The notes under the pieces are model-generated. The model was not told the origin of the DNA, searched no databases, and saw only the letters and a program-made list of their open reading frames with translations. From a candidate division NC10 bacterium CSP1-5 (lineage in GTDB: Bacteria; Methylomirabilota; Methylomirabilia; Methylomirabilales; CSP1-5), in assembly GCA_001443495.1 (NCBI GenBank), contig LDXR01000024.1:1-33788 (forward strand): 33,788 nucleotides of DNA, in the 5' to 3' direction. Shown piece by piece: positions 1 to 10,751 of this stretch. Each line of letters opens with the position of its first letter. The first letter of the stretch is position 1. The position numbers and the translations under genes are program-made.

Positions 1-1
1 C

Positions 2-217
2 GAGGCGATCCTGAAGGACAAGAAGAAGATCCTTCCCTGCTGTGCCCACCTGAACGGCGAGTACGGTGTGAAGGGGCTCTTCGTGGGGGTCCCCGTCAAG
101 CTCGGTCGGGGCGGCATCGAGCAGATCATCGAGATCAGCTTGACCCCCGAGGAGCAGACGGCCCTTGACAAATCGGCCGCCGCCGTTCGCGAGCTAGTGG
201 AAAAACTGAAACTGTAA
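2..217 (+). CDS. mdh: Malate dehydrogenase, C-terminal fragment
   Basis: This is the last 71 codons of a gene that enters from the left edge. The protein reads [13 protein letters not shown], then [17 protein letters not shown], a GGIEQIIEI strand and a closing [10 protein letters not shown] helix. That is the C-terminal domain of the LDH-like bacterial malate dehydrogenases, which oxidise malate to oxaloacetate with NAD in the TCA cycle. The catalytic His and the NAD-binding domain lie outside the window. The stop is followed 26 bp later by the succinate dehydrogenase anchor gene, so it is probably the upstream member of a TCA operon. A lactate dehydrogenase cannot be strictly excluded from the C-terminus alone, but the TCA neighbours favour Mdh. 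Confidence 0.88.
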
Positions 218-243
218 GCGGTTTGTCTCCGGGGAAACGAGCC

Positions 244-1023
244 ATGGCGATCGAGGCGGTGAAGCATGCGGGGGATCGGGGCGCTGCTCCGACAGCGCTC
301 CGGAAGGATGCCTGGTGGGTTCAGCCCGCCCTCACGGTCCTGGGGCTCGGCGCCTTTATCGTGTACTCTACGTGGGCGGCGTTCCAGAATGCCTATTACT
401 ACGCGGATCCATATCTCTCGCCTTTCTATTCTCCCTGCGTTGCCGCGAACTGCCAGCACCTCACAGTCCAGCTCGTGGGTTCGTGGTGGACCTGGTCCCC
501 CGCCTTTTTAATCCTGTGGGCGCCGGGGGTCTTCCGCCTCACGTGTTACTATTACCGAAAGGCGTATTATCGGTCATTCTGGTGGGCGCCGCCCGCCTGT
601 GCGATGCCTGATGCGCGCCGGGGGTATGATGGCGAAACCTCCTTTCCCCTCGTCTTTCAGAACATCCATCGCTACACCTTTTATCTCGCTGTGCTCTTTA
701 TCGTCATCCTGACCTGGGATGCCATATTGGCGCTCCGGTTCCCTGATGGTTTCGGGGTCGGGGTCGGGACGCTCGTCCTCTGGGTCAACGTGGTGCTGCT
801 CGCCCTGTACACGTTTTCCTGCCACTCCTGCCGGCATCTGTGTGGGGGGCATGTGGATATCTTCTCCAGGGCGCCGTTTCGATACCGGATCTGGCATCGG
901 CTGAGCATGCTGAACGAGCGACACGCCCTCTTCGCCTGGTTGAGTCTGACCAGCGTGGGGCTGGCCGACCTGTACGTCCGGCTGGTCGCAATGGGGATTC
1001 TTCGCGACGTGAGGTTGCTCTAA
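244..1023 (+). CDS. sdhC: Succinate dehydrogenase membrane anchor, type F-like SdhC
   Basis: A 259-residue integral membrane protein with about five hydrophobic segments (roughly residues 25-48, 82-102, 143-165, 173-193 and 226-250). It lies directly upstream of sdhA and overlaps it by one base. It does not look like the classical heme b SdhC/SdhD anchors. A Cys/His cluster, CHSCRHLCGGH at 193-203, sits at the end of the fourth segment, and C65, C70 and H72 lie in the loop after the first. The anchor-flavoprotein-FeS order and a single five-helix anchor match mycobacterial Sdh1 (type F complex II), whose SdhC carries a membrane-embedded Rieske-type [2Fe-2S] cluster with two His ligands. The cluster here is inferred from these residues. 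ATG 244 follows a GGGGAAA ribosome site at 231-237; a TTG 21 bp upstream lacks one. Family assignment is by context and motif, not by alignment. Confidence 0.8.
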   Translation: MAIEAVKHAGDRGAAPTALRKDAWWVQPALTVLGLGAFIVYSTWAAFQNAYYYADPYLSPFYSPCVAANCQHLTVQLVGSWWTWSPAFLILWAPGVFRLTCYYYRKAYYRSFWWAPPACAMPDARRGYDGETSFPLVFQNIHRYTFYLAVLFIVILTWDAILALRFPDGFGVGVGTLVLWVNVVLLALYTFSCHSCRHLCGGHVDIFSRAPFRYRIWHRLSMLNERHALFAWLSLTSVGLADLYVRLVAMGILRDVRLL

Positions 1024-2825: not shown

Positions 2826-3575
2826 ATGGCTGACGTGACCGTACGGGTCTGGCGGGGGAACGCGCAGGGCGGCGCCTTTCACGAATACCGGGTCCCGGTC
2901 GAGGAGGGCATGGTGGTCCTGGATGTCCTGCATCGGATCCAGGCGATCCACGCCAACGACCTCGCTCTCCGCTGGAATTGCAAGGCGGGGAAGTGCGGCT
3001 CGTGCGGCGCAGAGGTGAACGGGCATCCACGGCTGACCTGTATGACCCGCATGAACATCTTCACGCCGGGCGAGACGATCACCGTGGCGCCGATGAAGAC
3101 CTTCCCGATCATCAAGGACCTCGTCACGGACGTGTCCTTCAACTTCCAGGTCGCGAAGAAGATTCCCGCCTTCCAGTCGCGCCCCCCGGATGCGCCGGAC
3201 GGGAGCTGGCGGATGATGCAGGAGGACATTGACCGGGTCCAGGAGTTCCGCAAGTGCATCGAGTGTTTTCTCTGCCAGAACGTCTGCCACGTCATCCGTG
3301 ACCACGAAGGGAAAAAGCAGCACTTCGCCGGTCCGCGCTTCTTTGTCCGGCTGGCGGAGCTGGAGATGCACCCGCTGGACACCGGCACGCGGACCGGTCT
3401 CGTCAAGGAGTTCGCCGGCATTGGGCTGTGCAACATCACGAAGTGCTGCACCGAGGTCTGCCCAGAGCACATCCGCATCACCGATAATGCCATTATCCCA
3501 CTGAAGGAGCGGGTCGTGGACGAGCACTACGACCCGGTCGTGTGGCTGCTGCGAAAGGTCCTCGGCAAGCGGTAG
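2826..3575 (+). CDS. sdhB: Succinate dehydrogenase iron-sulfur subunit
   Basis: A 249-residue electron-transfer subunit linking the SdhA flavin to the membrane anchor. All three cluster motifs are intact. C52, C57, C60 and C72 form the plant-ferredoxin-type [2Fe-2S] site. C144, C147, C150 and C154 (CIECFLCQNVC) form the [4Fe-4S] site. C202, C207/C208 and C212 (CNITKCCTEVC) lie in the region of the [3Fe-4S] and remaining [4Fe-4S] ligands. The first cluster keeps the usual fourth ligand as Cys. The ATG begins on the base after the sdhA stop, so the two are co-translated. The next gene is 120 bp away. The C-terminal half, with FLCQNVCHVIRDHEG, resembles the mycobacterial Sdh1 type more than the proteobacterial one, which agrees with the unusual anchor. 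Confidence 0.96.
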   Translation: MADVTVRVWRGNAQGGAFHEYRVPVEEGMVVLDVLHRIQAIHANDLALRWNCKAGKCGSCGAEVNGHPRLTCMTRMNIFTPGETITVAPMKTFPIIKDLVTDVSFNFQVAKKIPAFQSRPPDAPDGSWRMMQEDIDRVQEFRKCIECFLCQNVCHVIRDHEGKKQHFAGPRFFVRLAELEMHPLDTGTRTGLVKEFAGIGLCNITKCCTEVCPEHIRITDNAIIPLKERVVDEHYDPVVWLLRKVLGKR

Positions 3576-3695
3576 CCTCGGGACGCTCTGTCCGGGCGCG
3601 AGTGATACCGAATCCTCATCTGCCTGGCCGGTGGGGCCCTGCCCTTTCCAGCACGTCACTTTCGTCGATCGGTCATCTGAAGACGCGAGGCGCGT

Positions 3696-4331
3696 GTGAA
3701 GATTCACGAGTATCAGGCCAAGGCGATTCTGACGGAGTTCGGGGTGCCCATCCCCCGGTCCTACGCCCTGTTCATCCTGCGGGAGCTTACCAGTGTCTTT
3801 GTGGGGCTGTTTGCCGTTGGCCTGCTGTGGCACCTCCGGGTGTTAATGGAGGGCCCGGAGGCCTATGCGTACTTCCTCGCCCAGTTGCGGAGACCGATCT
3901 TCGTAGCCCTCAATAGTGTCGTCTTGCTCTTCATTCTCTTTCATACCATTAGCTGGTTCAACTTGGCTCCAAAGGCGATGGTCGTGCGACCCAGCACACC
4001 GCTCTTCCGGACCCTGTTCGGCGCGGGGGGGACGATCGCAGCACTCCTCTTCCCCGTCCATCTCATGTTGAGCGGGTTGGCCTTTCCGTTGGGGGCGCTC
4101 GAAGCCCCCAGCTACGATTTCCTGTACGGCCTGGTGGGGCATCCCGTCACACGGCTGTATCTGTTGGTCATCATTACCCTTCCGCTGTTCCACTGGGCCC
4201 ATCGGTTCCTCTATACACTCTACAATGTTCTGCAGTTGAAACATCTGTACCGCTTCATCGCTGTGCTCTGCTACAGTGCCGTCCTTCTCGGAAGCGCCGT
4301 AGCGGCCTATACGGTGTGGCGTATTCCCTAG
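3696..4331 (+). CDS. Chimeric membrane protein: SucC-like leader fused to FrdC-FrdD-like anchor
   Basis: A 211-residue protein in three parts. Residues 1-21 ([18 protein letters not shown]) are the start of a succinyl-CoA synthetase beta subunit. Thirty-four consecutive bases after the first base of the start codon match the local sucC start near 8632. Residues 22-98 match fumarate reductase FrdC from its first helix (LRELTSVFVGLF) through its second (LLFILFHTISWFNLAPKA), with E30 and H83 at the positions of the E. coli quinone-site residues E29 and H82. Residues 99-211 match FrdD (PLFRTLFGAGG, then LPLFHWAHR), with H169 near FrdD H80. The FrdC N-terminus and third helix are absent. About five membrane helices remain. 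Starts at GTG with a weak upstream AGGCG. No frdA/frdB lies nearby; sdhA/sdhB are just upstream. Whether it is expressed and pairs with SdhAB is unknown. Confidence 0.8.
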   Translation: MKIHEYQAKAILTEFGVPIPRSYALFILRELTSVFVGLFAVGLLWHLRVLMEGPEAYAYFLAQLRRPIFVALNSVVLLFILFHTISWFNLAPKAMVVRPSTPLFRTLFGAGGTIAALLFPVHLMLSGLAFPLGALEAPSYDFLYGLVGHPVTRLYLLVIITLPLFHWAHRFLYTLYNVLQLKHLYRFIAVLCYSAVLLGSAVAAYTVWRIP

Positions 4332-4436
4332 TGCCGTTCCAACGCCTCTCACCTGGAACAGAGGTGTGCGATGATAAGACTGGAGCGGACCTTGTCCGTG
4401 TTCAATGCTCCGCTACCTCGATGGGCATTGACGATG

Positions 4437-4449
4437 TATAATAATATAT
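4437..4449 (+). promoter_or_regulatory. AT-rich candidate -10 region upstream of acnA
   Basis: In the 145-bp gap before acnA there is an AT-only run beginning TATAATAATATAT, conspicuous against the GC-rich background. TATAAT at 4437-4442 would be a perfect -10 box, but no good -35 stands 16-18 bp upstream; TTGACG at 4428 is too close. The gap also holds overlapping short inverted repeats at 4336-4366 (GTTCCA/TGGAAC and CACCT/AGGTG). Position and composition suggest a promoter for acnA-ndh, but the call is weak. Confidence 0.35.
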
Positions 4450-4479
4450 GCAGCGCGTAATGGCAGGGGAGGACGGGTG

Positions 4480-7218
4480 ATGAAGTACCGGGACGAATTT
4501 GGTGCCAAGCGTGCTCTGGAGAGCGTGGGTGGCACCCTTGCTTACTTTGATATCAACGCCCTCGAGAAGCGGGGGATTGCCCGCGTCTCAACGCTTCCCT
4601 TCTCGATCAAGGTCATGCTGGAGAGCATCCTGCGCAATGTGGACGGCTACCAGGTGCTGCCCGGAGACGTGGAGGCCCTCGCCCGTTGGCAGCCGGAGCC
4701 CGGGGAGATCAACGTGCCCCTGATGCTGGGCCGGGTGGTTCTCCAGGACTTCACCGGCGTGCCGGTGGCCGTGGACCTGGCAGCCATGCGGAGCGCCATG
4801 GCCCGCCTGGGGGCCGACCCCAAGCGGATCAACCCCCTCGTCCCCGCGGACCTGGTGATCGACCACTCGGTGCAGGTGGACTTCTTCGGGACCACCGACG
4901 CCTTCCGCGCCAATGTGGAGAAGGAGTACGAGCGCAATCGGGAGCGGTACACCCTGCTGAAGTGGGCGCAAAAGTCGCTCACCAACTTCCGGGTGGTGCC
5001 ACCCGGGGCCGGGATTGTCCACCAGGTGAATCTGGAGTACCTCGCCAAGGTGGTCATGACCCAGCGAAGGAATGGGGAGACCTACGCCTTTCCCGACACC
5101 CTGGTGGGGACCGACTCGCACACCACCATGATCAACGGCCTGGGGGTGCTGGGGTGGGGTGTCGGCGGCATCGAGGCCGAGGCGGTGATGGTGGGACAGC
5201 CCTACTATATGCTGGCCCCCAAGGTGGTGGGCTTCAAGCTCACGGGGGAGCTACCCGAGGGTGCCACGGCCACCGACCTGGTCCTCACGATCACCCAGCG
5301 GCTCCGTCAATACGGGGTGGTCGACAAATTTGTCGAGTTCTACGGCCCGGGTCTCCGCAAGCTCTCGGTGGCAGACCGGGCCACCATCGCCAACATGTCT
5401 CCCGAATACGGAGCCACCATGGGCTTCTTCCCGGTGGACGAGGAGACCCTGACGTACCTTCGCCTGACGGGGCGGGACCCCGCGCTGGTAGATTTGGTAG
5501 AGCGGTACACCAAGGCCGTGGGCCTCTTCTTGACGGACGGGGCGCCAGAGCCCCTCTTCTCCACGACTCTGCAGCTCGACATGTCCACCGTGGAGCCCAG
5601 CCTTGCAGGGCCGAAGCGCCCCCAGGACCGGGTGTCTCTGAAGGAGGCGAAGAGCAGCTTCCTCGAGCACCGGATGAGACCCCTCAAGGAACGGGGCTTC
5701 GGACTGAATGAGGAGGAGCTCCAGAGGCGGGTCAGCGTAAAGCGAGAGAGCGAAACGTTTGACGTCGCCCATGGCTCGGTGGTCATTGCCGCCATTACCT
5801 CTTGTACCAACACCTCCAACCCTTCGGTGATGCTCGGGGCCGGGCTCTTGGCGAAGAACGCTTTGGAGGCGGGTCTCCGCGTCCAGCCTTGGGTGAAGAC
5901 CTCCTTAGCCCCGGGCTCCAAGGTCGTCACCGACTACCTTCAGGCCTCGGGATTGATGTCCTCCTTGGAGGCCCTCCGCTTCCACCTGGTGGGATATGGC
6001 TGCACCACGTGCATCGGTAACTCGGGCCCCCTGCCGGAGGACATCGGCAAAGCCGTTGATCAGGGAAATCTGGTCGGCGTGGCTGTCCTCTCCGGGAACC
6101 GGAACTTCGAGGGACGCATCCATCCGCAGGTGAAGGCCAACTACTTGGCCTCGCCCATGCTGGTCGTGGCGTACGCCCTCGCCGGGCGGATTGACATTGA
6201 CTTTGGCACCGAGCCGGTCGGCTATGGCCCCAGCGGCAGGCCCGTCTCCCTCAAGGACATTTGGCCGACCCAGGAACAGATCCGGGAGACGATCCGAAAA
6301 ACCCTGGACCCCAAGATGTTCAAGGAAGAGTACGGTAGAGTGTTCGACGGGGATGAGCATTGGAAGACCCTGCCCGCCTCTGAGAGCGAGTTGTACACGT
6401 GGGACCCCGACTCGACCTACATCCAGGAACCCCCCTTCTTTCAGGACCTGTCGCTCGAGCCCCCGCCCGTTCGGGACATCCGCGGGGCACGGGTGCTGGC
6501 GGTCGCGGGAGACTCTGTGACCACCGACCACATCTCACCTGCCGGCTCGTTCTCGGCCAACAGCCCTGCGGGTCAGTACCTCATCGGCAAGGGTGTCTCC
6601 CCCAAGGACTTCAATTCGTACGGGTCCCGCCGCGGCAACCACGAGGTGATGATGCGGGGCAGCTTCGCCAACATCCGCTTCAAGAACCTCCTGCTCGATG
6701 GGGTAGAGGGATGGGTCACCCTGAAGTTCCCCGAAGGGAAACAGATGAGCATCTTTGACGCGGCCATCCAGTACAAGGCGGAAGGCACCCCCCTGATCAT
6801 CCTGGCTGGCAAGGAGTATGGTTCAGGCTCAAGCCGCGACTGGGCTGCGAAAGGGCCCTACCTCCTCGGCGTCAAGGCGGTTATCGCCGAGTCCTTTGAG
6901 CGGATCCACCGATCCAACCTGGTGGGGATGGGTGTGCTGCCCCTGCAGTTCAAGCCGGAGGAGAGCGTGCAAACGCTGGGCCTGACCGGCCGAGAGGTGC
7001 ACGACATCCTGGGCTTGGAGGAGGGTCTTCGGCCGGGGAAGGAGCTCACCGTTGTGGCTCGGCGGGAGGACGGGGGTGAGTGCCGCTTCACGGCCATTGC
7101 ACGGGTGGACACACCCGTCGAGGTGGACTACTACAAAAATGGCGGCATTCTCCAGACAGTCCTCCGCCGTCTCGTGAAGGCGCCCAAGGATGGTAAGGCG
7201 GGCAGTCCAGCACGGTGA
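4480..7218 (+). CDS. acnA: Aconitate hydratase, AcnA/IRP type
   Basis: A 912-residue aconitase that interconverts citrate and isocitrate using a [4Fe-4S] cluster. The cluster ligands are C442 ([11 protein letters not shown]) and C508/C511 (GCTTCIGN), offset by seven from E. coli AcnA C435/C501/C504. The C-terminal swivel domain contains [12 protein letters not shown] and [13 protein letters not shown]. The length is that of the AcnA/IRP1 family, not AcnB. ATG 4480 is preferred over the GTG directly before it because GGAGG at 4468-4472 then has a 7-bp spacing. The last base of its stop codon is the first base of the next gene, a type II NADH dehydrogenase, so the two should be co-translated. 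It supplies the step between citrate synthase and isocitrate dehydrogenase, both outside the window. Confidence 0.97.
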
Positions 7219-8504
7219 TGGAGAAGCCACATCATGTCGTCATCATCGGCGGCGGCTTTGGGGGGCTGTATGCGGCGCAATCGCTGAAGCGGACGCGGGT
7301 GCAGGTAACACTCCTCGATCGCCGCAACTTCCACCTCTTTCAGCCACTTCTGTATCAGGTAGCGACCGGGACCCTTTCGCCTGCCAACATCGCCGCACCC
7401 CTGAGGGCCATTCTCAAGCGCCAGGAAAACATCAGAGTGCTTTTGGCTGAGGCGATCGACATCGATGTGTCGAACCGCCGGGTGGTGCTGAGCGATGGCG
7501 AGGTGGGCTACGATACGCTGATCGTCGCCGCGGGCGTGCGGCATCACTACTTCGGTCGCGACGAATGGGAGAGGCTCGCGCCCGGGCTGAAAACGATCGA
7601 AGACGCGACGGAGATGCGGCGGCGCATCCTGGTGGCGTTTGAGGCCGCCGAGCGTGAGGGTGATCCTGAAAAACTCCGGGGCTGGTTGACGTTTGTCATC
7701 GTCGGCGGGGGTCCCACCGGGGTTGAGCTGGCCGGTGCGGTGGGAGAGATCGCGAGACACACACTCGCGCGTGACTTCCGGGCCATCAATCCGGCTGACG
7801 CGCGGATTGTGCTGGTGGAGGGGATGGACCGGGTGTTGCCTCCCTATCCCGCGTCCCTCTCGGCCAGGGCTGAAGCGGCGCTCAACCGGTTGGGCGTGAC
7901 CGTTCGGACCGGGGCGATGGTGACTGACATTCAACCGGATGTGATAACGATTCGCTCTGGCGAGCGGAACGAGCGGATCTCCACCCGAACGGTCTTGTGG
8001 GCGGCCGGCGTTCAGGCGTCTACCCTGGGCGGCATCCTCGCGTCTACCACAGGGGCTGCCGTTGACCGTGTCGGTCGCGTGGTGGTGGAGCCGGATCTGA
8101 GTGTCGTCGGGCATCCGGAGATCTTCGTGATTGGCGACCTGGCCCACTTCGGCCATCAGACCGGCAAGCCCCTCGCCGGTGTGGCGCCGGTGGCCATGCA
8201 GCAGGGCCGGTACGTGGCCACCCTGATCATGCGCAGGCTTCGGGGGGAGACCATGCCCCCGTTCCGCTACAGAGATCATGGGAACATGGCCACAATTGGG
8301 AGAGCCGAGGCGGTGGCCGACCTGGGGTGGGTCCGCTTCTCCGGCTTCTTCGCCTGGCTGGCCTGGCTGTTCATCCATCTGATCAACCTGGTGCAGTTTC
8401 AGAATCGGGTCCTCGTGCTGATCCAGTGGGCGTGGAACTATGCCACCTGGAACCGCTACGCCCGACTCATCACTGGGAAGAACCCGTTGCCGTTGCTGCG
8501 CTAA
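7218..8504 (+). CDS. ndh: Type II NADH:quinone oxidoreductase
   Basis: A 428-residue, non-proton-pumping NADH dehydrogenase: a membrane-bound FAD enzyme that passes electrons from NADH to quinone. Two dinucleotide-binding folds are visible, [14 protein letters not shown] near the N-terminus (FAD) and [19 protein letters not shown] near residue 160 (NADH). The conserved [15 protein letters not shown] follows the first fold, and VFVIGDLAH-type FAD-contact residues appear as [10 protein letters not shown]. The C-terminus ([19 protein letters not shown], then [15 protein letters not shown]) is hydrophobic and amphipathic and is the expected membrane anchor. Its ATG overlaps the acnA TGA by one base, a coupling that ties this respiratory enzyme to a TCA gene. 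A sulfide:quinone oxidoreductase is less likely because the sequence follows the Ndh pattern throughout. Confidence 0.93.
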
Positions 8505-8631: not shown

Positions 8632-9804
8632 ATGAAGATTCACGAGTATCAGGCCAAGGCGATTCTGGGGGAAGGCGGCGTGCCGGTGCCGGCGGGCGAG
8701 GTGGCCGACACACCGGCTGCCGCCAGGGCCGTTGCGGAGCGCCTCGGCGGCCGCGTGGTGGTCAAGGCCCAGGTCCACGCGGGGGGTCGGGGGAAGGCCG
8801 GGGGGATCAAGATTGCCGACGATCCTGGCGGGGCGGAGGCCGCCGCGCGGGCCATTCTTGGCATGAGACTCAAGACCCCCCAGACCCCGCCCGAGGGGAT
8901 CGAGGTCCGCAAGGTTCTGGTCGAGGAGGCCTCGAGCGTTGCCCGGGAGCTCTACCTCTCGGTGACTCTCGATCGGGCCCGTGCCAGCCATGTGGTCATG
9001 GCGTCGGAGGCAGGCGGCATGGAGATCGAAGAGGTCGCCGTCCGGCACCCCGAGAAGATTATTCGCGAGTGGGCGCACCCGGCCCTTGGCCTCCAGGACT
9101 TTCAGGCGCGCCGCGTGGCGTTCGGCCTCGGGCTCGCCGGCGAGCAGTTCAAGCAGGGGATCGGGTTGATCCGCAATCTCTTCAGGCTCTATCTCGCCAA
9201 GGATTGCTCGCTGGCAGAGATCAACCCTCTGGTCGTGACGACAGATGGGCGGGTCCTCGCCCTGGACGCAAAGCTGAACTTCGACGACAATGCGCTGTAC
9301 CGCCACGCGGATGTCGCGGCCCTGCGGGACATTCACGAGGAGGACCCCCTCGACGTCGAAGCCTCGAAGTTTAACCTGAACTACATCAAGCTTACCGGGA
9401 ACGTCGGGTGCATGGTGAACGGCGCGGGGCTCGCCATGGCCACCATGGACATCATCAAGCTGGCCGGTGGGGAACCGGCCAATTTCCTCGATGTCGGCGG
9501 CGGGGCGTCCGCCGAGCAGATCGAAAACGCCTTCCGTATCCTGTCGTCTGACCCGAGCGTGAAAGCGGTCTTCATCAACATCTTCGGCGGCATTCTCCGC
9601 TGTGACCGCCTGGCTGAGGGGATGATTGCTGCCGTGAAGAAACTCGGGTTGCGGCTGCCGGTTGTGGTGCGGATGGAGGGCACCAACGTCGAGCTAGGCA
9701 AAAAGATGCTGGCGGAGTCAGGGCTCAGCCTCGTTACGGCGGAGGACATGGCCGATGGGGCGCGGAAAGCCGTCGCGCTTGCCAGACGGGTTCAGAGTTC
9801 ATAG
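8632..9804 (+). CDS. sucC: Succinyl-CoA synthetase (ADP-forming) beta subunit
   Basis: A 390-residue ATP-grasp subunit that, with SucD, converts succinyl-CoA to succinate with synthesis of ATP or GTP. It begins [12 protein letters not shown] and continues with [18 protein letters not shown], the nucleotide-binding lobe, then [11 protein letters not shown] and [12 protein letters not shown], which are metal and nucleotide contacts. The C-terminal ligase domain includes LDVGGGAS and [11 protein letters not shown]. Length is close to the family norm. ATG 8632 follows GAGGTG at 8623-8628; a GTG six bases upstream lies inside that site. The final codons and stop fall inside a 7-bp repeat array, so the last few residues (VQSS) may have been contributed by the repeat. 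The first 11 codons are duplicated at 3696. Confidence 0.97.
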
Positions 9805-9872
9805 TTCAGAGTTCATGGTCAGAATTTGGATTCGGTCCAGTTCGATGAACCATGAACCATTCACCATGAACG
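9789..9872. repeat. Inverted pair of heptamer repeat arrays between sucC and sucD
   Basis: Left array 9789-9816 has four 7-bp units (GGTTCAG, AGTTCAT, AGTTCAG, AGTTCAT). Right array 9845-9872 has four units (ATGAACC, ATGAACC, ATTCACC, ATGAACG). The right units are reverse complements of the left with a TGAAC core, so the two arrays face each other across about 28 bp. GTTCATGGT (9811-9819) pairs perfectly with ACCATGAAC (9849-9857). The left array contains the sucC stop codon and the right array ends three bases before the sucD ATG, so no normal Shine-Dalgarno remains there. Confidence 0.85.
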
Positions 9873-9875
9873 AAC

Positions 9876-10751
9876 ATGAGTATACTGGTTGACAAGTCGA
9901 CGCGGGTCGTCGTGCAGGGGATCACCGGCCGAGAGGGGGCGTTCCACGCGGCGCGGTGCAAGGAGTACGGTACCACCGTCGTCGGGGGTGTCACCCCGGG
10001 AAAGGGGGGGACCACCCATGACGGGTTTCCCGTCTGGAATACGGTCGTCGAGGCGGCGGCGCAGGAAGGGGCGAATTGCTCCCTAATTTTCGTGCCGCCT
10101 TCCGCGGCTGCCGACGCGATCATGGAAGCAGCCGCTACGGGCATCCCCGTTATCGTCTGCATCACGGAGGGCGTTCCCGCCACCGACATGGTTCGGGTGC
10201 GGGAGTTCCTCGCCTCGACCGGGAGCCGACTGATCGGCCCGAATTGCCCCGGCGTGATCACCCCCGGGCAGGCCAAGGTCGGGATCATGCCAGGCCACAT
10301 TCATCGCGAGGGACCGGTCGGGGTCGTCTCCCGGAGCGGCACGCTCACCTACGAGGTAGTCCATCAGCTCACGGGGCGCGCAATCGGCCAGTCGACATGC
10401 GTGGGGATCGGCGGCGATCCCGTGGCCGGCACCAGCTTCGTGGACGCGCTCCGACTGTTTAACGATGACCCCGAGACGCGCGCGGTCATGCTGATCGGGG
10501 AGATTGGGGGAACGGCCGAGGAGGAGGCGGCGGCCTTCGTCAAGGCCCACATGCAGAAACCGGTGATCGGGCATGTGGCGGGGATGACGGCCCCGCCCGG
10601 CCGGCGGATGGGACATGCGGGGGCGATCATCGCCGGCGGCAAGGGAACGGCGGCAGAGAAGGTGAAGGCCATGGAGACGGCGGGGATGCACGTCTGTCGG
10701 TCTCCGGCTGAGATGGGAGCCGTGGTCGAAAGGGTTCTCCGGGCCTGTTAG
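9876..10751 (+). CDS. sucD: Succinyl-CoA synthetase alpha subunit
   Basis: A 291-residue subunit carrying the CoA site and the phosphohistidine. The N-terminal Rossmann domain begins [18 protein letters not shown] and holds the CoA-binding GVTPGKGG. H247 in [14 protein letters not shown] is the phosphorylated histidine (E. coli H246). [12 protein letters not shown] and [13 protein letters not shown] are also typical. It follows sucC by 71 bp, all of it repeat DNA, and the sequence directly before the ATG (accatgaacgaac) has no purine-rich ribosome site. Translation may therefore depend on RNA folding of the repeats or on coupling with sucC. The stop is followed by a hairpin and an intrinsic terminator, so this is probably the end of the TCA transcript. 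Confidence 0.97.

Follow-up and report, generated by a model that had tools for sequence, protein, structure and literature searches.

An in-frame SucC-FrdC-FrdD gene, most likely a relic, at the probable seam of an operon replacement in a candidate division NC10 bacterium

The locus described here raises the question of how a reading frame came to begin as SucC and to continue as membrane subunits of fumarate reductase, and whether its product is likely to serve any function. The window, 33,788 nucleotides in length, is one whole contig (G000:C24) of a 2.77 Mb assembly in 40 contigs from the candidate division NC10 bacterium CSP1-5. The reading we favor, with a probability of about 0.7, is that the fused gene is most likely a relic marking the seam of an operon replacement, in which sdhCAB and the start of its own sucC took the place of frdAB and the start of frdC.

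Composition of the fused gene

The fused gene (3696..4331, + strand) consists of SucC, FrdC and FrdD parts in a single frame, which starts at a GTG with stop codons upstream, is open over 211 codons and runs through both joints without a shift. An earlier note on this DNA had recognized the SucC N-terminus in the first 21 codons, and the match of residues 1-31 to NCBIfam PRK00696 (E=1.4e-4) bears this out; the Pfam ATP-grasp_2 match is under its cut-off, and a protein with only the first ~21 codons and neither the ATP-grasp nor the CoA-ligase domain is not a member of the SucC family. The note also described a frame entering an FrdC-like helix. FrdC is indeed present, but the membrane part is FrdC plus FrdD rather than FrdC alone, with Pfam placing Fumarate_red_C at residues 21-116 (1.7e-21) and Fumarate_red_D at residues 98-206 (8.4e-21). 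The changeover from SucC to FrdC falls at residue 21-22, in the stretch ...AILTEFGVPIPRSYALFILR, and FrdD runs from residue 98. The fusion of FrdC to FrdD, the loss of frdAB and the strong divergence of the frdC piece had all escaped the note.

The three parts differ in completeness. The sucC stub (3696..3758, +) covers the first ~21 codons of what appears to be a second sucC and supplies the start codon and the probable ribosome-binding context, with GAGG five bases before the GTG at the end of the spacer that separates it from sdhB (3576..3695, +). This spacer matched none of the loci collected for comparison, and a promoter and terminator scan of 3500-4550 gave nothing useful. The frdC piece (3756..3988, +) corresponds to codons 32-109 of frdC in G005, a genome of the same genus. 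Its profile match (PF02300) reaches 77 bits, but it is not an FrdC in the sense of a three-helix chain with an N-terminal WW motif: it lacks the first 31 codons including that motif (44/45 and 46/46 in collected FrdC), and also helix 3 with its invariant Trp (45/45). The frdD part (3984..4331, +) begins at its own first codon, with GTG in place of ATG, and is complete; it continues the frame of the frdC piece and matches the FrdD profile (PF02313) along the whole chain (74.8 bits in Pfam, covering positions 4-112 of the 114 in the profile); the NCBIfam FrdD score of the fused gene, 58.1, is just under the cut-off of 60.

Two enzyme sets before sucCD and the probable history of the hybrid

Gene order places the fused gene between two arrangements that occur separately in relatives. 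The window reads mdh-sdhCAB-[sucC stub]-[frdC piece]-frdD-acnA-ndh-sucC-sucD. On the + strand, the 3' end of mdh (1..216; 98% DNA identity to the G005 mdh that precedes frdA) is followed by the sdhC-like membrane subunit of the replacing set (223..1023), the sdhA flavoprotein gene (PRK07803; 1023..2825) and the sdhB iron-sulfur subunit gene (PRK12386; 2826..3575), after which sucC comes next in relatives. Beyond the fused gene lie acnA (4480..7218, +) and ndh (7215..8504, +), both positioned as in G005 and G002, then the intact resident sucC (8632..9804, +; 96% amino acid identity to G005) and sucD (9876-10751). The G005 order is icd-mdh-frdA-frdB-frdC-frdD-acnA-ndh-sucC-sucD-ndk, and so the frdABCD locus there has the same flanks, mdh before and acnA-ndh-sucCD after; unlike the window it has intact frdAB, a frdC separate from frdD with an ordinary start (MGDEMSPGTQYTPYHPKWYRRRMSVWWWLQNRSYVYFVLRELTS...), and no sdhCAB. 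In G003, also of this genus, the order is mdh-sdhC-sdhA-sdhB-sucC-sucD-ndk, and sdhB and sucC are 46 nt apart. Many more genomes, G008, G035, G036 and G040 among them, likewise keep sucC a short distance after sdhB, and frdABCD followed by sucC is found in G045, G015 and others. Two alternative enzyme sets, frdABCD or sdhCAB, stand before sucCD in this group, and the locus in the window is a hybrid of both arrangements with the fused gene on the seam. A normal FrdC start in a close relative, which the earlier note would have counted against the junction, is seen in G005; because the whole frdABCD set there occupies the place of sdhCAB, however, it explains the junction rather than abolishing it.

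The SdhC-like subunit at 223-1023 has no NCBIfam model and no Pfam match above cut-off, yet it is conserved before sdhA in G003 and the other sdhCAB loci examined. Contig bases 1-156, within mdh where the contig breaks, are identical to G005 in a region that otherwise differs by 5-10%; possible causes are recent exchange and the co-assembly of related strains. A left-hand crossover in mdh at 157, which the positions of the mismatches had suggested, was considered and dropped, as 157-216 is ordinarily divergent and 1-156 is the unusually identical part. The icd gene, next to mdh in G005, lies here on another contig (G000:C3:95935-97136, 92% DNA identity to G005), and its placement suggests rearrangement or splitting in the upstream half of the locus as well.

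The assembly was searched with SdhB, SucC, FrdA, the fused protein and a 5.5 kb piece of G005 DNA, and no frdA, frdB, intact frdC or second sucC was found; the start of frdC is absent from the whole assembly. With FrdA and FrdB missing from the assembly, the fused protein does not belong to a quinol:fumarate reductase (FrdABCD complex). A tandem-duplication joint was rejected, there being no intact frdC, frdD or frdAB elsewhere in the assembly. Sequence resembling frdC or frdD occurs in 20 of the 95 genomes searched in the phylum, and a single gapless FrdC-FrdD match in this genome only (the frdC side of G002 is cut by a contig end). Widespread FrdC-FrdD fusion at distant loci was rejected, since the single gapped tblastn hits there cross a stop codon and the frames end with FrdC.

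Each joint can be located with a precision of a few bases. At joint 1 SucC is left at codon ~21 and FrdC is entered at G005 codon 32, within CCGGTCCTACG, a stretch also present in frdC. If the donor SucC had the common ending CCC CGG GGC, the two ends would share the microhomology CCGG, which is partly assumed given that the donor sequence is itself putative. Joint 2 lies at TGCG (3985-3988), where window position 3985 aligns to both G005 5336 in frdC and 5447 in frdD, and amounts to a 111-nt in-frame loss relative to G005 that removes FrdC helix 3.

A third discontinuity lies inside frdD. Against G005, mismatches occupy 65/270 positions (24%) across the frdC piece plus the first ~45 bases of frdD, and 20/306 (6.5%; 93.5% identical after 4026) across the rest of frdD. 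The best change point is 4025/4026, with a 2-unit interval that defines the mosaic boundary at 4020..4035, and 0/5000 permutations were as strong. Synonymous divergence from G005 follows the same pattern, with dS of 1.03 in the frdC piece against 0.23 in frdD, 0.24 in acnA, 0.31 in ndh, 0.18 in sucC and 0.17 in sucD. Because divergence drops so sharply at 4026, the frdC piece is, judged by its sequence, not from a G005-like frdC but from a diverged source, and the same dS weakens the view that an illegitimate joint formed directly in such a gene. As an alternative, frdC may instead have been replaced in the G005 lineage; G002 is cut at that place.

In the operon-replacement reading that we prefer, sdhCAB with the first ~21 codons of its own sucC would have displaced frdA, frdB and the beginning of frdC, through cuts inside sucC and inside frdC whose ends were joined in frame at the short sequence common to both (CCGG). 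A further in-frame deletion, at TGCG, would have joined frdC to frdD with loss of FrdC helix 3. Since the sequence up to 4026, in the frdC piece and at the start of frdD, is far more diverged than what follows, the block sdhCAB-sucC'-frdC'-frdD' probably formed, on the simplest reading, in a diverged relative; homologous recombination inside frdD would then have brought it into a G005-like chromosome. The gene orders, the junction sequences, the mosaic boundary and the lack of frdAB in the assembly are direct observations, whereas the order of these events, the recombination mechanism and the loss of function are what we infer. The closest known kind of event is an operon replacement that leaves a truncated neighbor at the joint, and a useful comparison is homology-facilitated illegitimate recombination (HFIR), in which insertion and deletion are coupled, one end forming by homologous recombination and the other usually at 3-10 bp of microhomology (PMC3240628). 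In the window the inserted and lost sets are similar in size (~3.5 kb in, 2.6 kb out), joint 2 falls at four shared bases and the putative CCGG of joint 1 would fit, whereas the right-hand boundary at 4026, which looks homologous, lies 270 bases beyond joint 1. HFIR could have made the first joint only, in the lineage where the hybrid arose, and the boundary at 4026 resembles the product of ordinary homologous recombination.

On this reading the locus would be a scar of an operon swap in central metabolism that can be read with unusual clarity, as both parental arrangements survive in related genomes and the mosaic boundary indicates that the hybrid arose outside the present chromosome. It also illustrates how swapping can produce an in-frame chimera that would be annotated as a fumarate reductase subunit in an organism where the enzyme appears to have been lost.

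Relic or working membrane anchor

The fused gene is most likely a young relic that is still translatable, because FrdAB is missing, an invariant FrdD Trp is Arg and a complete SdhCAB is encoded upstream. The rival view that selection has kept the gene, as a one-chain five-helix anchor or as a quinone or haem protein, perhaps acting with SdhAB, is unlikely, and it draws on several properties of the predicted product. All 211 codons are open with both joints in frame, and residues Glu41, His94 and Trp98 of FrdC (E41, H94 and W98 in G005 numbering) are kept. An AlphaFold2 model shows five long helices and an unstructured SucC part (mean pLDDT 68, pTM 0.59, 8 rows), and the nearest solved folds, matched weakly (E 0.08-0.16), are E. 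coli FrdD and the one-chain Wolinella anchor. The dN/dS of 0.13 in the frdC piece would likewise suggest constraint, but this value mostly reflects time before the fusion. The absence of FrdAB from the assembly leaves such an anchor without its catalytic partner, and SdhAB has its own SdhC upstream. In addition to the loss of the FrdC WW motif and helix 3, FrdD W9, invariant in the collected set (48/48), is Arg in the window, and the conserved residues R76, D81 and A100 are also changed. Alignment to 1kf6_D puts W9 at an E. coli Trp (Trp14 of mature FrdD), which we take to be a menaquinone-site residue. After codon 15 of frdD the window lineage has accumulated 6 amino acid and 6 silent changes, compared with 40 and 129 in acnA plus ndh (p=0.08), which is no more than suggestive of relaxed constraint in frdD.

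Fusion of the C and D subunits with loss of a helix is the proposed origin of the one-chain five-helix anchors of complex II. The product resembles the Wolinella FrdC type in having five helices on one chain and a weak fold match; it differs in that its sequence is that of two-chain FrdC and FrdD, it has no catalytic partner and conserved residues are changed. It is improbable that the SucC(1-21)-FrdC-FrdD protein serves as a membrane anchor with five helices in one chain, or as an electron carrier. If it did, the gene would be a recent natural re-run of the C+D fusion with helix loss, its translation start borrowed from sucC, and hence a test case for how such anchors originate. The nearest precedent found in the literature for a fusion of frd anchor genes is the FrdBC and FrdBC'D proteins of the M. 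bovis lineage, where FrdB runs on into FrdC owing to an indel in a poly-G tract (PMC7835394). There, as here, adjoining frd subunit genes were fused in frame by natural mutation. In the M. bovis lineage the catalytic subunits are present, whereas here deletions join SucC, FrdC and FrdD, and a helix and frdAB are lost.

Origin of the sucC stub and ancestry of the locus

The earlier note had offered two origins for the SucC-like codons, capture of the start of the resident sucC at 8632 by recombination and persistence of part of a second sucC after a deletion removed the rest. The first is unlikely as an account of the fused gene, whether the start was copied onto frdC by recombination or by gene conversion, and the case for it is the identity of the two starts. 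The exact tract reported there exists, with a length of 35 nt rather than 34 (3697-3731 = 8633-8667), and lies after start codons that differ (GTG at 3696, ATG at 8632); the DNA upstream is unlike, as had been noted. Chance does not produce such a match (mean 0.00 in 100 dinucleotide shuffles), and the stub also agrees with the G005 sucC over 36/36 bases, start codon included. Among 1,910 cross-genus pairs of sucC starts from related genomes, most have 27-31 of 35 bases in common and the maximum is 34 (13 pairs); pairs at 35/35 are formed only by the stub, the resident sucC and the G005 sucC. The identity is only slightly surprising because sucC starts are strongly conserved, and at slightly above the level set by that conservation it is no proof of copying, although it leaves room for a short conversion.

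Past the tract the SucC-like codons continue with a different sequence. Over 66 nt the stub and the resident gene share 51 bases; the stub reads TEFGVPIP, near the REFGVPVP common to many relatives, and it is the resident sucC that has the unusual form at this place, GEGGVPVP. Over 60 nt, too few for a tree to assign the donor, the stub is nearest to the sucC of G084 (54/60), which starts 23 bases after an sdhB match, followed by G005 (51) and the resident (49). Since its closest match is an sdhB-linked sucC from elsewhere and not the resident gene, the stub was probably not copied from 8632. Copying would also leave the loss of frdA and frdB unexplained, and the stub lies just after sdhB, where many relatives keep sucC. 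Position and sequence together give good support to the view that a second sucC, once part of the sdhCAB set, left its 5' end as the stub, as the second of the two proposals held.

An assembly or binning chimera present in no real cell is very improbable, even for a metagenome-type assembly in 40 contigs with a contig that begins inside mdh and a 35-nt repeat, as the SucC-FrdC joint lies at a few shared bases away from that repeat, a path swap at the repeat would keep the joint and turn acnA-ndh into a closed loop, and an assembly error would hardly give two joints and a mosaic boundary that all keep the frame.

Trees of the flanking genes point to a mixed ancestry across the locus. The sdhA in the window is sister to that of G003 (90/90), its nearest relative in the tree, sdhB is nearest to that of G092 (88/97), and the sucC at 8632 clusters with those of G005 and family f7. 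A lone sdhB elsewhere (L174:102-908, on G006:C8; 75% amino acid identity to that of the window) is found without sdhA or sdhC and adjoins genes for a 4Fe-4S protein and a sulfite-reductase-like protein, possibly a case of SdhB reuse; G003:C27 carries a near-identical copy. The resident SucC is 85-86% identical in amino acids to family f7 and 66-68% to same-genus G001 and G003, a grouping that suggests transfer of the sucCD end of the locus (8632-10751).
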